A DNA stretch of 60,650 bases from a virus, in the IMG/VR virus record IMGVR_UViG_3300006924_000018, positions 1 through 60,650 of that record, one strand, 5' to 3'. This document shows positions 242-8,996 of this stretch, one piece after another. The position numbers and the translations under genes are program-made. Position 1 is the first letter of the stretch, and each line of letters starts with the position of its first letter. A model generated the notes under the pieces. It was given only the letters and a program-made list of their open reading frames with translations, made no database searches and was not told the DNA's origin.

Positions 242-607
242 ATGAGACTCCTGCTTGAGAACTGGAAGAAGTATCTGGATGAGAACATCTTCTATGTTAG
301 CATCGAAAAGCTTTTGCCCACTGAAGAGCTGGGTCACGGAAAAGATCACGATTGCCCAAGCAAGACCTGTGACGATATTATCCAACAAAAGATGGATTCT
401 ATGAAAGCTGGTGATATTAAGCCTATTGAAGTGTGCAACCAGAAGCCTGTTAACCCTTATAGGCTTCAGGGGCAGCCTTCAGCGCCCAAGACAGGTATGT
501 CAGAGCCATTTTACTACGTCTTGGACGGCCACCACAGACTAGAAGCCGCAAAGAGGCTTGGATTGGCCAAGATGCCTGTTTATTTGACACCAAAGGAAAC
601 AAAATGA
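242..607 (+). CDS. ParB-like nuclease-fold protein with N-terminal LLENW tag
   Basis: This 121-residue protein has a ParB/sulfiredoxin-type fold signature. A strand plus P-T motif lies near residues 18-27, a helix and 'KPIEV' strand near 50-64, and the diagnostic D-G-H-H-R at 95-99 is followed by 'LEAAKRLG'. In the ParB family this motif lies in the nucleotide-binding or nuclease pocket. Residues 1-14 are the LLENW-type tag ending in L-D-E, shared with four neighbours. The start at 242 is supported by the conserved tag. The stop overlaps the next start in ATGA. Family members can be CTPases, nucleases or small modification enzymes, and which applies here cannot be told. The tag suggests that it is packaged in the head and injected; that is inference. 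Confidence 0.75.
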   Translation: MRLLLENWKKYLDENIFYVSIEKLLPTEELGHGKDHDCPSKTCDDIIQQKMDSMKAGDIKPIEVCNQKPVNPYRLQGQPSAPKTGMSEPFYYVLDGHHRLEAAKRLGLAKMPVYLTPKETK

Positions 608-623
608 AACTCCTACTTGAAAA
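596..623 (+). repeat. Direct repeat copy 1 covering start and tag
   Basis: These 28 bases are identical to 1096-1123, exactly 500 bases downstream. The copy covers the end of one gene, the ribosome-binding region, the ATG and the first seven codons of the tag. Identity of the DNA, not only of the peptide, suggests recent duplication or recombination at this point. Confidence 0.9.
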
Positions 624-1107
624 CTGGAAGAAGTTTTTGAATGAAGAAAAAGAGTTCAAACAAGTTGATGACTATTACGAAATAGGAGTCTCCAAGTCTG
701 AATACCATCCAGCGTGGGATTATGAACCTAATGAGAGCCCTAGTCTTCTATCACAGGAGGCTTACGAAATGGCTTTTGATGCTGCTCAAGAACTTTCAAA
801 TAAACTTGGTTTAGGTCAAATAGCCTTATACTATGTTCAGGGAGAAAGTTTTGATAATCATCTTGCTCGTTACATCAATGGAACTTATAAGTCACCGGTA
901 ATAGTTTTGTCTGATAAGGTGGAGCAACAAGAAGAAGCCAAAATAACCCTGTTTCACGAACTGGGACACGCTTATGTAGAATCTATTGGTTTGGAGATTG
1001 ATGAAGAAGCAGAGGAGGATTTGGTGGAAGAGTTCGCACGACGCTACATACAAGATCCAGAATCAGGCTTGAACTACTTGAAGAACTTTGAAGGAGAAAC
1101 AAAATGA
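604..1107 (+). CDS. ImmA/IrrE-like zinc metallopeptidase with LLENW tag
   Basis: This 167-residue protein carries H-E-L-G-H at residues 118-122 in 'ITLFHELGHAYVE', followed by an acidic stretch and 'EEFARRY', where the third zinc ligand of this family (E-x-x-A-x-x-F-A) is expected. Small proteins of this layout belong to the ImmA/IrrE (M78) group, whose known members cleave repressors or regulators. Residues 1-14 form the tag ending in L-N-E. The gene overlaps its neighbours on both sides by ATGA and has the same leader DNA as the next gene. If the tag directs packaging, the protease would enter the host with the DNA and could cut a host regulator. The target is unknown. Confidence 0.78.
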   Translation: MKLLLENWKKFLNEEKEFKQVDDYYEIGVSKSEYHPAWDYEPNESPSLLSQEAYEMAFDAAQELSNKLGLGQIALYYVQGESFDNHLARYINGTYKSPVIVLSDKVEQQEEAKITLFHELGHAYVESIGLEIDEEAEEDLVEEFARRYIQDPESGLNYLKNFEGETK

Positions 1108-1123
1108 AACTCCTACTTGAAAA
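1096..1123 (+). repeat. Direct repeat copy 2 covering start and tag
   Basis: Identical over 28 bases to 596-623. It spans the end of the protease gene and the start and first seven codons of the kinase-like gene. Confidence 0.9.
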
Positions 1124-3164: not shown

Positions 3165-3728
3165 ATGCGTAGACTTATGGAAAGCTGGGGTCGCTTCGTA
3201 AATGAAGCCGCAGACAGCGGTTTGACTTCTGTAGAGATCACAGAAATGGTAAAAAGTGGTATTCTTGAGCTCGTCAGCGGCCAACTTGACGGCCCTGCAC
3301 TCGAAGATGCCTTTCTTAAGTTCCGTGCGAACCTAATTGGTGAGCGAATCACTGCTGAAGAGTTCTCTGCGGCTTGCGACGACGCTATGAAGATGATTTC
3401 TATCTCAGCCGTCCCTAATAACCTTGACGGAAAGCTTGAGCGTATCGCAGATGTATGCCAACAGTTCTCTGAAGAGGGTCCAGTTGAAGAGATGAACTAC
3501 CGCCAAGAGCCTGAATTGCCTAATGTTGGCAATGATATGAATAAATTGTATTCTTTGGCCGCTGAACTGGCTGAAGTTGACCTCGCAACAGTTATGAAGG
3601 TCGACAATTCTATCCAAGAAGCCTTTGCAGAGCTTCAGGAGGCCGGTGAGCTTATGGATTACACCAGTCCCGAGGCACTTATGCACGCTGCGTCTATGAT
3701 GGGCGAGATTCAGGAAGAAGAGAAGTGA
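3165..3728 (+). CDS. Helical protein with LLENW-type tag
   Basis: The first 14 residues of this 187-residue protein, M-R-R-L-M-E-S-W-G-R-F-V-N-E followed by A-A, are the tag in its most T4-like form, with V-N-E then Ala as at a gp21 cleavage site. The rest is acidic and helical, with no family that I recognise ('LAAELAEVDLATVMKV', 'ALMHAASMMGEIQEEEK'). It has no cysteine-rich motif or enzyme signature beyond two scattered Cys. It could be a structural internal head protein or a scaffold-like component instead of an enzyme. It has its own promoter at 3114-3142 and overlaps the next gene by GTGA. Confidence 0.7.
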   Translation: MRRLMESWGRFVNEAADSGLTSVEITEMVKSGILELVSGQLDGPALEDAFLKFRANLIGERITAEEFSAACDDAMKMISISAVPNNLDGKLERIADVCQQFSEEGPVEEMNYRQEPELPNVGNDMNKLYSLAAELAEVDLATVMKVDNSIQEAFAELQEAGELMDYTSPEALMHAASMMGEIQEEEK

Positions 3729-4021
3729 AAAAGCTTCTTGAAAACTGGAACAGTTTTGTATCAGAAGCAAATGAGCAGGAAGAACTTGTAGAATACGTTG
3801 TTCCTGTTGGCTATTCGCTCGAAAGATGGCAAGCAAAGCGCAAGGAAGACAAGATTACCAACGCTGATTGGCATAAAGATCACCCTGAAGCCCGTTGGAA
3901 AGTCGTACACGGCCACAAGAAGGGCGAGATCGGCGATCCTGTCAACGATAAGGCAAAGAATATGTCTTACGAAGATGCAAACAAAATGCACTCTGCTATT
4001 GCAATTAGTCAGGGCGCATAA
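3725..4021 (+). CDS. Small protein with LLENW tag
   Basis: This 98-residue protein starts at GTG (3725), overlapping the TGA of the gene before it, with AGGAAGAAGAG upstream. The start is fixed by the tag M-K-K-L-L-E-N-W-N-S-F-V-S-E, followed by A. The remainder is basic and polar ('GYSLERWQAKRKEDKITNADWHKDHPEARWKVVHGHKKGEI') with several His and Trp residues, and ends in a helix 'YEDANKMHSAIAI'. I do not recognise a family. A basic small internal head protein that binds DNA is one possibility. Confidence 0.7.
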   Translation: MKKLLENWNSFVSEANEQEELVEYVVPVGYSLERWQAKRKEDKITNADWHKDHPEARWKVVHGHKKGEIGDPVNDKAKNMSYEDANKMHSAIAISQGA

Positions 4022-4054: not shown

Positions 4055-4888
4055 ATGAATGTCCGAAGCCTAGGCGACAAACTAGCGCGTGCTGTTGTGG
4101 CGGAACTATCCAAATCACGCCCTCTCAGCGGAGAAAAGACGCAGAAACTAAAGAAGTTTGTTCAAGAAGAGATGGTTCAGGCCATCCTCGGAAAGATTGA
4201 GAGCCTTCGAAGCCTAAAGGAAAATAAAATGAAGATCACAAAGACACAACTTAAGAATATTATTGCCGAAGAGATCAATCGTGCCCTCAATGAAGGCCGT
4301 GGCTTCGAGGAGCGCCGTGACAACGCTCTCTACTATGCTTATGCGTCTACACAAAGGGGCGTGTACCCAGAGAAGGTAGCTGACTTGTTCGATATGGCTC
4401 TCGACAAGGCCATCGAAGCCGGTGGTGTCTCTAGCGAGACCGAGGAGAGTCGTGATGTCTTTATTGACATTGAAGATGAGATTAAGAAGGCCGAGGGCGT
4501 TGGTAGAGAAAATATTGCAAAAGTTCTTATGGCCCTTAATACTCTTGACGGTATGTCTGTCGATCAGCTAAAAGCAATTCCTCGTAGTGACGAGGCTGCA
4601 AAGGCTGCCGAGAAGAGGGCACAGCCTGAAATCAAGCGCAAGCGCGCAGTACAGGCCAAGAGATCAATTAGGGACATTATGGGTAAGCTTGATGAAGGTA
4701 TGGATATTATGTCAATGATGTCGATGCCACTAGATCAAGTCGCTGGTATGCTAGATGTAGCCCCAGCTGTACTCGCAGGCGTTCTCGCTACTCTCGCAGG
4801 TAAGAGCGGTGGCCTTCCAAATATGGAAAACGCTGAAGAGAAAGAAACTGAAGACGTAATGGAGATCCCCCGCATCAAGCGAGGCTGA
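4055..4888 (+). CDS. Helical protein with internal second tag and in-frame start
   Basis: The full frame gives 277 residues from ATG 4055, which follows AGGGG. Residues 1-58 are basic and helical and include 'KKFVQEE'. At residue 59 a second ATG (4229) is preceded by AAAGGA at a good distance. From there the protein begins M-K-I-T-K-T-Q-L-K-N-I-I-A-E-E, the same N-terminal segment as the gene at 6544. So either two products are made from one frame, or the short form (219 residues) is the main one. The rest is charged and helical, with a Met-rich stretch 'MDIMSMMSMPLDQVAGML' and a basic C-terminus. Probably a head-internal or structural protein; function unknown. Confidence 0.6.
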   Translation: MNVRSLGDKLARAVVAELSKSRPLSGEKTQKLKKFVQEEMVQAILGKIESLRSLKENKMKITKTQLKNIIAEEINRALNEGRGFEERRDNALYYAYASTQRGVYPEKVADLFDMALDKAIEAGGVSSETEESRDVFIDIEDEIKKAEGVGRENIAKVLMALNTLDGMSVDQLKAIPRSDEAAKAAEKRAQPEIKRKRAVQAKRSIRDIMGKLDEGMDIMSMMSMPLDQVAGMLDVAPAVLAGVLATLAGKSGGLPNMENAEEKETEDVMEIPRIKRG

Positions 4889-5315: not shown

Positions 5316-5744
5316 ATGTCTTCTGATTTCAAATATTCTATGGGCTTGAATCACGCTGGTGCTTATCAGGTTAGTGGTGTGCCTTTTGTTACCGGCAATC
5401 TAACAGCGCCGGCATCAGGTTCCGAGCCGTTTAAGATTGAATTCCCTTCTGTAACTCGCTGGTTTACAATTACTTCCGAAGCTAATCAACACATCCGATT
5501 TGGTTTTTCTGCTAATGGCGTCAAGAACGGCAGCCACAATTACTTCATTACACACGAAGATAATCACCCTATGCAGAACGGCCCTTACGAAATGAAGATC
5601 ACAGAGCTGTATATCTTGAGCGATAACGGCAACGCCCATACAGGCGTATATGTGATGGCAGGCTTGACAGGTCTTCCGGTAAGTCGTGTTAATAACATTT
5701 CGCCTTCTGGTTCAAACTGGTCCGGCTCACTCGGCGTTGGCTAA
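5316..5744 (+). CDS. Putative virion surface or decoration protein
   Basis: This 142-residue protein is rich in Gly, Ser, Asn and aromatic residues, with a beta pattern ('GAYQVSGVPFVTGN', 'RWFTITSEANQHIRFGFSANG', 'NGPYEMKITELYILSDN', 'TGVYVMAGLTGLP'). The conserved-looking start 'GLNHAGAYQVSG' and the length suggest a small beta-sandwich virion protein such as a head decoration or fiber-tip protein. It has no Cys and no signal peptide. It stands alone, with a late-type element before it and a sigma-70-like promoter after it. The structural role is inferred from composition only. Confidence 0.5.
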   Translation: MSSDFKYSMGLNHAGAYQVSGVPFVTGNLTAPASGSEPFKIEFPSVTRWFTITSEANQHIRFGFSANGVKNGSHNYFITHEDNHPMQNGPYEMKITELYILSDNGNAHTGVYVMAGLTGLPVSRVNNISPSGSNWSGSLGVG

Positions 5745-5805: not shown

Positions 5806-6510
5806 ATGGCAGTTTTTCTATTCGACATCGACAATACAATTACTCCTCCTCGGCAACGTATGACCGAGGAGTTTCTTGAGTTTTTCTTGCCGTTCTGTAT
5901 TGAAAACAAAGTTTATCTTTGCACCGGCTCTGACTGGCCAAAGGTCACCGAGCAGGTGCCAACAGAGATTCTAGAAATCGTCGAAGGCGTATTTACCTGT
6001 TCTGGTAATGCCCTTTGGCGCGATATGCACGAGCAAGAGAGCTGGAGGAATGACTGGCAGGTGCCGGCAGAAGTTCTTACAGAGCTTATCAAGTTCTCTA
6101 GCAGTACAAAGTCTCCTCACGTTACGGGACGTCACCTTGAAACTCGTGTTGGGATGGTGAACTTCAGCACTATCGGAAGAAACTGTACTCAAGAGCAGCG
6201 TGAAGAGTATGAAGAGTGGGATAATGAGGTTGGTGAGCGTCGACATATTGTCGATGTATTGTCAGTGAAGTTCCCAGATCTCGATTTTAATATTGGCGGA
6301 CAGATTAGCATCGACATCCACCCAAAGGGCAACGACAAATCCAGAGCAGTTCTTCTAGCAACTGCTTGGGAGCAAGACGAGATTCTTTTCTTTGGTGACA
6401 GATTGATGCCCGGTGGCAATGATTGGGCTGTCACAAAGGTCCTAAAGGAACAAAATTGTGTAAAGGTCGATAGTTGGCAAGATACTTTGAGTTTTTTGTC
6501 TAGAATTTAA
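5806..6510 (+). CDS. Phosphomannomutase, HAD superfamily
   Basis: This 234-residue protein matches the eukaryotic-type alpha-phosphomannomutase family, which interconverts mannose-6-phosphate and mannose-1-phosphate in GDP-mannose synthesis. The HAD motif F-D-I-D-N-T lies at residues 6-11 (D7 nucleophile, D9 acid/base), followed by T-P-P-R. 'TGSDWPKVTEQV', 'CSGNALWR', 'RVGMVNFSTIGRNC', 'GGQISIDIHPKGNDK' and 'FFGDRLMPGGNDW' each align with a family motif. Length is slightly below the usual 245-260. It has its own sigma-70-like promoter, so it may be expressed early. It may feed the glycosyltransferase operon at 19.5-25.7 kb, although no GDP-mannose pyrophosphorylase is seen. Confidence 0.85.
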   Translation: MAVFLFDIDNTITPPRQRMTEEFLEFFLPFCIENKVYLCTGSDWPKVTEQVPTEILEIVEGVFTCSGNALWRDMHEQESWRNDWQVPAEVLTELIKFSSSTKSPHVTGRHLETRVGMVNFSTIGRNCTQEQREEYEEWDNEVGERRHIVDVLSVKFPDLDFNIGGQISIDIHPKGNDKSRAVLLATAWEQDEILFFGDRLMPGGNDWAVTKVLKEQNCVKVDSWQDTLSFLSRI

Positions 6511-6543: not shown

Positions 6544-6945
6544 ATGCAGATCACAGAAAGCAAGCTACGCTCTATTATTATGGAAGAGTATGGCAGAGCA
6601 TCACGCGACCTTAAGATGGAAGCTGAAAAGGCTCGTATGAAAGATTCTGGTAAGGAAGTACACGTAGTTGCTGCAGATGGTCCCGGCGATCAAGCGGTTA
6701 TCGACAGAGACGGTGATGGCCCAGCCAAGCCAGAGATGGTCGATGAGAAGGATGTCGAAATCCTAAAAGAGGATGTAGACGTTCTTGAGGCCGCACACAG
6801 CGCACTTGTTGGCCTAATTAGCAACATCGAGAAGTCAGACTTTACACACAACAGCAACAAGCAAATTGCTCTCAGAGCGCTTGATATTGCTATGCAGACT
6901 CTCGGCACAGATATGCTAGGCGACAAGTTCGAAGACAAGATGTGA
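6544..6945 (+). CDS. Acidic protein with ITESKL-type N-terminal tag
   Basis: I start at ATG 6544, six bases after GAGG, because it places M-Q-I-T-E-S-K-L-R-S-I-I-M-E-E at the N-terminus, parallel to the internal start at 4229. A GTG at 6532 is in frame but lacks a site. The product has 133 residues. The tag ends in I-M-E-E, an I-x-E sequence like a gp21 cleavage site. The middle is acidic with 'DGPGDQAVIDRDGDGPAKP', and the end is helical. I do not recognise a family. It is likely a head-internal or structural protein coupled to the next gene. Confidence 0.65.
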   Translation: MQITESKLRSIIMEEYGRASRDLKMEAEKARMKDSGKEVHVVAADGPGDQAVIDRDGDGPAKPEMVDEKDVEILKEDVDVLEAAHSALVGLISNIEKSDFTHNSNKQIALRALDIAMQTLGTDMLGDKFEDKM

Positions 6946-8289: not shown

Positions 8290-8580
8290 ATGGAAAAGTT
8301 TCCTTTTGAAGAGATTGCCCTAGAGAACAACCTCAAGCTTCGAACGTTTTCACCAGATGTGGATACTGAAGAGTTGGTGTGGCACCGTGACCGTGAAGAC
8401 CGAAAGGTTTTCATTGTTGAGTCTGGTGGTTGGCAATTGCAAATGGATAATGAAATTCCACAATTGTTGGAGAACACAGCTACTTATAGTATACCTGCAA
8501 GGGTCTTTCACCGTGTAATCAAGGGTGAGGGAACTTTGATTGCCTTAATTGAAGAAAAGCCTTTTGGAGAAAACAAATGA
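8290..8580 (+). CDS. Small cupin-fold protein
   Basis: I start at ATG 8290, two bases after the preceding stop. The frame is open back to 8170 but that part lies inside the gene before. The 96-residue protein has the order 'ELVWHRDREDRKVFIVESGGWQLQMDNEIP' then 'ATYSIPARVFHRVIKGEGTLIALIEE', which fits a cupin beta-barrel with a His in each of the two cupin motifs. Similar small proteins occur in T4-like phages. A metal-dependent enzyme or a sugar-binding role is possible, but the substrate cannot be told. Confidence 0.6.
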   Translation: MEKFPFEEIALENNLKLRTFSPDVDTEELVWHRDREDRKVFIVESGGWQLQMDNEIPQLLENTATYSIPARVFHRVIKGEGTLIALIEEKPFGENK

Positions 8581-8996
8581 TCAAGATTATTATTGGCAAA
8601 GTAATGGATATGGTCTGCCCAAAGGCTACACAAGACCTTGAGCTGAATACTAAGAACAGGAACGCAGCAATCAAGGAAGACTATATTCAGTATGGGCCAT
8701 TAAACCTAAGCGATGAAGATTACTGGGATAGAGCAGCCGAACACTGGAACACTACACCAGAGGTTGCCAAAGAGTCAAAGTGCTCCAACTGTGTGGCATT
8801 TGACATCTCTCCTAGAATGTTGAAGTGTATGCCGGGACCAACTTCGGAACCCATTGAGGACGAAGACGGCTACCTAGGCTACTGCTATATGCACCATTTT
8901 AAGTGCCATTCAGCAAGAACTTGCTACACTTGGGCCGCAGGCGGCCCCATCAAGAGTGATGAAGTTTCTATGGAATGGCAAAAGAAGAGTGAATAA
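8577..8996 (+). CDS. Cys-rich metal-binding protein
   Basis: This 139-residue protein overlaps the previous gene by ATGA. The C-terminal half holds 'CSNCVAFD', 'LKCMPG', 'GYCYMHHFKCHSARTCYTW', so six or more Cys and several His within about 50 residues. That is suited to an iron-sulfur cluster or zinc. C-x-x-C, a Cys some 15 residues later and G-Y-C resemble the HiPIP ligand order, but the match is loose. The N-terminus is charged and ordinary. Soluble, no signal peptide. Function unknown. Confidence 0.6.
   Translation: MIKIIIGKVMDMVCPKATQDLELNTKNRNAAIKEDYIQYGPLNLSDEDYWDRAAEHWNTTPEVAKESKCSNCVAFDISPRMLKCMPGPTSEPIEDEDGYLGYCYMHHFKCHSARTCYTWAAGGPIKSDEVSMEWQKKSE

Follow-up and report, generated by a model that had tools for sequence, protein, structure and literature searches.

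A perfect direct repeat as the likely border of one cassette in a tagged-gene array of an uncultivated T4-like phage

The repeat and the tagged genes around it

The window, by which we mean the whole stretch of 60,650 nucleotides analyzed here (positions 1 to 60,650 of the IMG/VR virus record IMGVR_UViG_3300006924_000018), contains five genes that begin with a similar short N-terminal tag, at positions 242, 604, 1104, 3165 and 3725, all on the plus strand. The first of them (242-607, 121 residues) joins the tag MRLLLENWKKYLDE to a ParB/DGHHR-like domain, a weak assignment; homologues of this gene occurred in 14 loci, and those in L037 and L085 were 61-66% identical. The second (604-1107, 167 residues) carries the tag MKLLLENWKKFLNE in front of an HExxH metallopeptidase-like body, as judged from weak Pfam and PHROG matches and an HELGH motif, and its predicted structure was of middling quality and matched no fold significantly. 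We found no relative of this protein among named phages and a single one in IMG/VR, in locus L003, where a 55% identical body follows a different tag as part of a longer protein of several units. The third gene (1104-1805, 233 residues; tag MKLLLENWLNYLNE) has a kinase-like body matching phrog_4301 and tagged relatives in three loci (L028, L051 and L113); its structure was predicted with low confidence, and the weak Foldseek matches were almost all to kinases. The remaining two genes are located further downstream (3165-3728, 187 residues, tag MRRLMESWGRFVNE; and 3725-4021, 98 residues, tag MKKLLENWNSFVSE), and the GTG start of the latter overlaps the stop codon of the former.

A second N-terminal tag type was observed on the genes at 4229-4888 (plus strand; MKITKTQLKNIIAEE, also with [LI]-x-E) and 6544-6945 (MQITESKLRSIIMEE, of the same kind and ending in I-x-E), and similar starts were present on some head-cluster genes of relatives. 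The gene at 8577-8993 encodes a CPKATQDLELN body that is untagged here and stands behind an MKLLLENW-type tag in many relatives, and the phage also encodes, at 5806-6510, a phosphomannomutase of eukaryotic type (PF03332, E 9e-33). Pfam and PHROG scans of the window proteins matched no internal-protein family.

Bases 596-623 are identical to bases 1096-1123 on the plus strand, and this 28-base direct repeat is exact, just as the initial annotation had reported. It is maximal at 28 bases, since the adjoining positions are mismatched on both sides (G/A at 595/1095 and C/T at 624/1124), and no third copy was present in the window with up to three mismatches allowed. By simple arithmetic, the chance expectation for an exact repeat of this length in 60 kb of random sequence is about 1e-8. 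A 79%-similar copy at 234-285 belongs to the same set as the tag genes. The repeat is composed of GAAACAAA upstream, the ATG and 17 more coding bases. Copy 1 (596-623) covers the end of the first gene (E-T-K-stop), an ATGA overlap and the first 20 bases of the second gene's tag, and copy 2 (1096-1123) covers the end of the second gene (again E-T-K-stop), an ATGA overlap and the first 20 bases of the third gene's tag. The bases upstream of each ATG thus double as the final codons of the gene before it, and the TGA of that gene overlaps the ATG, which places the repeat at two gene joints. Exactly one gene (604-1107) is flanked by the two copies; it belongs to a series of tagged genes in which stop and start codons overlap from one gene to the next.

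The initial annotation had described the repeat as covering a ribosome site, the ATG and seven tag codons. The ATG is indeed included; however, only five whole codons follow it, and of the seventh codon just two bases are covered (604-623). The Shine-Dalgarno-like AGGA/AGGAG lies mostly outside, with GAAACAAA being the only upstream part covered. The identity does extend upstream of the ATG, by eight bases, but the fact that the same bases code for the end of the preceding gene had been overlooked.

Twenty of the 28 repeat bases correspond to the commonest DNA form of the MKLLLENWRKYLNE-like tag. Since most MKLLLENW tags carry this 20-base core, its identity alone is no proof of a recent local event. 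The eight upstream bases are a peculiarity of this window: matching runs of at least eight bases were rare among unrelated upstream regions. Between loci they occurred in six of 20,823 tag pairs, and within loci in two of 199, the window providing one of the two. These extra bases probably record one copying event around the 604 cassette. A recent tandem duplication of a whole gene, with the two bodies diverging later, could also leave two adjacent copies sharing 28 bases, the upstream ones included. However, the bodies of the 604 and 1104 genes fall into different clusters, each with tagged or untagged relatives elsewhere, and only four of 73 adjacent tag pairs had the same body family. Duplication in place was rejected on the basis of these unrelated bodies, and we regard it as exceedingly improbable.

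A tag shared at the DNA level

To describe the distribution of the tag, we searched with degenerate DNA encoding M[KR]LLLENW, in which all synonymous leucine, glutamate and asparagine codons were allowed. It matched at least 120 virus contig stretches, and a looser protein pattern applied to these stretches revealed at least 226 tag genes in at least 108 loci. With near-identical contigs removed, there were 200 tag genes in 107 non-redundant loci, whose bodies formed approximately 95 clusters by single linkage among the matches listed. In 15 larger contigs the tag was present one to nine times, usually clustered and nearly always on the same strand. Searches for the tag DNA in named phages gave chance-level partial matches only, a narrow exact form of it was not found in any of 84,980 species genomes of bacteria and archaea, and the tag peptide had no match in a literature search.

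Analysis of synonymous codons revealed that the haplotype AAACTCCTACTTGAAAAT occurred exactly in 53 of 92 MKLLLENW tags (58%, among the matches listed), compared with 0.08% expected from codon usage in the early codons of other genes, an approximately 700-fold excess. A codon-usage artefact as the source of the DNA identity was therefore rejected. The leucine codons CTCCTACTT (CTC-CTA-CTT) were found in none of 76 other Leu-Leu-Leu stretches. The synonymous excess was confined to codons 2-10 and nearly gone in codons 11-16, and tag residues 12-14 were conserved as peptide without such an excess. Upstream of the ATG, the tag genes showed ordinary ribosome-site bias only and the bases were not conserved. 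The conserved DNA spans the ATG to near codon 10, and it persists with GTG or TTG starts. Taken together, these comparisons of sequence show the first ~30 bases of the tag to be a DNA block common to many genes and phages.

It might be supposed that the peptide is simply kept for its function and that the DNA identity comes from limited codon choice, with no exchange at all. Such selection would agree with the strong conservation of the peptide and with its last part (L-x-E), where conservation is seen at the protein level only. On the other hand, both the haplotype excess and the absence of the leucine codon series from other genes speak against it, as do the exact tag-to-tag deletions and swaps described below, and protein-level selection alone appears extremely unlikely.

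A different explanation is that the ~30 bases are kept for a function at the nucleotide level, such as translation initiation, a regulator site or a nuclease target, with exchange being a side effect. The conserved stretch runs from the start codon to near codon 10, a region that may bear on translation, and this holds with GTG and TTG starts as well. However, the 5' untranslated bases are not conserved, and the tag alleles LLL, LLM and LLF have different synonymous haplotypes even within one genome, which fits copied DNA lineages and not one selected motif. We consider this explanation unlikely.

Gain, loss and exchange of cassettes in related contigs

The initial annotation had proposed comparing related phages for gain, loss or swapping of the segment between the two repeats, and had named fixed gene content with a diverged repeat as the refuting outcome. 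Relatives were available as metagenome assemblies, in which short repeats are places where assemblers can join falsely. First, we found five contigs from five metagenomes (L034, L048, L093, L019 and L029) whose flanks were collinear and 91-97% identical to L034, the shared left flank being 1.4-1.9 kb long and the right one 4-8 kb. Compared with L034, bases 1878-2595 (718 bp) were missing from L048, bases 1454-2248 (795 bp) from L093, and bases 1454-2595 (1142 bp) from both L019 and L029. All joints of these losses were at tag ATGs or inside the tag, that is, exactly tag-to-tag. Second, L151 and L152 shared a homologue of the first window gene (93%) and a right-hand gene (84%), whereas the tagged gene between them was different; the left homology stopped 28 bases into the tag. 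Third, the gene that follows the first gene varied among lineages, being HExxH peptidase-like in the window, kinase-like in L085/L144, and a different tagged gene in L143, L145, L149, L151 and L152. The 4-base overlap after the first gene was present in five lineages (the window, L085/L144, L143, L145 and L149).

In L085 the kinase-like gene comes immediately after the first gene, and we initially considered this a simple loss of the 604 gene. However, the kinase-like genes of L085 and of the window are not detectably similar outside the tag, so loss and replacement are indistinguishable at this locus.

The same trend was observed over all pairs. Homology upstream of a start continued downstream of it in 13% of the cases at tags (53 pairs). 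For starts without a tag, the corresponding value was 75% when a tag lay within 3 kb (264 pairs) and 62% when it lay farther away (273 pairs). A bootstrap over loci placed the difference between tags and nearby non-tag starts at 0.37-0.80, the pair statistics not being independent. When pairs similar only upstream were compared with pairs similar only downstream, the identity profiles crossed over bases 0 to ~30 of the tag.

The apparent gains and losses could be produced by chimeric assemblies joined at the tag, especially as many assembly word sizes exceed the length of the shared stretches (27-50 bases). However, the five contigs came from five metagenomes, and L019 and L029 share the form that is shorter by three cassettes yet differ in sequence. 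The L151/L152 swap lies between two conserved flanks, and the neighbours after the first gene vary across lineages. Assembly artefacts are thus a very unlikely source of the pattern.

In terms of sequence, the comparisons show whole cassettes to have been gained, lost or exchanged between related contigs, with the joints in the tag block. The five-contig losses, the L151/L152 swap and the varied genes after the first gene are what the initial annotation had asked about, and fixed content with a diverged repeat is not what the relatives show. Its idea of a cassette-exchange design is strongly supported by these relatives as far as bodies exchanged behind one tag by recombination are concerned; however, a conserved leader with the ribosome site is not supported as the exchanged unit, as the DNA conservation in general starts at the ATG. 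No close relative of the window was found by DNA among named phages or by the proteins of the genes at 1104 and 1817, so that recombination at the 596/1096 pair itself is presumed.

Some relatives displayed fused forms. In L085 (10758-11474), L153 and L156, the body of the first gene is fused behind a further 110-200 residues, and the L085 gene retains what looks like a second tag-like junction (SAFMNEN), so that two cassettes have possibly merged into one gene. In L003 (3994-7044), at least three units, each headed by the second tag type (e.g., KESIQNTLRQMIKEE), follow one another in one frame of more than 1000 residues; this chain is possibly a polyprotein of packaged cargo cut by a prohead protease. 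GroEL-like, Hsp20-like, peptide deformylase-like and adenylosuccinate synthetase-like genes, as read from translations, were observed near the tag array of L085 (2888-9351).

The tag as a probable capsid-targeting sequence

A possible role of the tag was suggested by its last residues. In 143 of 162 tags the motif [LIVMF]xE has its last residue at position 14 or 15, compared with 9 of 162 at a +30 control. In T4, the cleavage site of gp21 follows L/I-X-E, and the 10 N-terminal residues of IPIII are enough for encapsidation (PMC9026906). An S77 (gp21-type) prohead protease and gp23 were both present in all eight tag contigs longer than 150 kb, the gp23 N-termini of the large tag contigs had conserved L-x-E sites, and a tag gene was located directly after the protease in contig G003. 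Because of the L/I-x-E motif at a fixed position and the presence of the gp21-type protease and gp23 in all eight large contigs, the tag is most likely a capsid-targeting sequence. The window is a 60-kb fragment in which the S77 protease and gp23 were not seen. The homologue of its gene at 5316-5744 (plus strand; 38% identity, E 7e-26, to L128:5256-5684) lies in the head cluster of a relative, G003, beside the S77 protease, and therefore the window array probably lies near head genes too.

Exchange could also proceed as described with a tag that serves another purpose, for example as a peptide targeting a membrane or a host complex. The window fragment, in which no such protease was seen, would agree with this, but the fixed position of L/I-x-E, the occurrence of the gp21-type protease and gp23 in every large contig, and the tag genes lying inside or beside the head cluster all argue for the capsid; a non-capsid role seems rather unlikely.

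Based on these results, it is likely that the repeat represents the borders of one cassette in a tagged-cargo array of a T4-like phage, in which the tag would provide both exchange and capsid targeting. Each gene of such an array consists of an N-terminal tag of ~14 residues and an unrelated body. Homologous recombination between tag copies, either within one phage or between co-infecting phages, would remove or insert a body in frame with the stop/start overlap kept, and the new gene would be expressed and tagged at once. The tag would then take the protein into the prohead, where a gp21-type protease would cut after L/I-x-E, and injection of the cargo might accompany that of the DNA, plausibly to counter a variety of host defences; we infer each of these steps (packaging, cleavage and injection). 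The ParB/DGHHR-like, HExxH peptidase-like and kinase-like bodies, although weakly assigned, would suit takeover or counter-defence. It should be pointed out that ~30 bases of homology is short for general recombination, which counts against this mechanism. A more specialized possibility, that the ~30-base tag DNA has been selected as a recombination site, possibly served by a dedicated nuclease or short-homology machinery, and that the arrays are a purpose-built device for reshuffling injected proteins, is in our opinion quite unlikely.

The T-even internal proteins are diverse defence inhibitors whose leader is their sole common part (PMC3012670, PMC12373910). Their loci (IPI, IPII and IPIII) are similar to the tag arrays in having a short conserved N-terminal leader with a gp21-type cleavage motif and highly diverse bodies, several per genome, with content that varies between related phages. 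The tags agree with the T-even type in leader length (~10-20 residues followed by L/I-x-E), and related phages differ here as well in how many bodies they carry, in which ones and in what order. Repoila et al. reportedly attributed the T-even shuffling, in 1994, to promoter-bearing repeats of ~70 bp flanking each gene. Such repeats do not appear to flank the tag genes, as the bases upstream of the ATG are unconserved between unrelated ones. Instead, the tag-coding sequence itself is the shared DNA at which recombination takes place, often where two genes overlap by ATGA. Moreover, unlike the T-even phages, the phages carrying the tag are uncultivated and mostly marine, with the ~95 body clusters among the matches listed.

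Two other systems deserve comparison. According to the part of PMC5694885 on which we drew, the packaged ejection proteins of the giant phages phiKZ and SPN3US also have an N-terminal propeptide cut after x-x-E by a gp21-like protease and comprise many different inner-head proteins, including two paralogues with identical first 15 residues; their propeptides, in contrast, are often longer than 100 residues and cleaved at A/S-x-E, and that part of the source describes no cassette array. Polymorphic toxins (MuF and others) combine a constant N-terminal delivery part with interchangeable C-terminal activities, and the polyvalent proteins of phages are injected multidomain proteins (PMC12226406, PMC7824862). 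Unlike in both of these groups, the tag has only ~14 residues and probably comes off before delivery, and every cargo has a small gene of its own, whereas L003 has a multi-unit fused version. Thus, the tag arrays resemble T-even internal-protein loci in role and differ in that the homology for exchange lies inside the targeting tag.

The tag offers a simple sequence handle for packaged, and probably injected, proteins of uncultivated T4-like phages. If the bodies are anti-defence or takeover proteins like T4 IPI-III, the arrays would be a rich source of unknown effectors. A delivery signal would double as the recombination homology that renews its cargo, and the individual steps can be seen in five natural variants of a single locus. 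By recombination at the tag, marine T4-like phages can therefore probably alter the set of proteins that they package.
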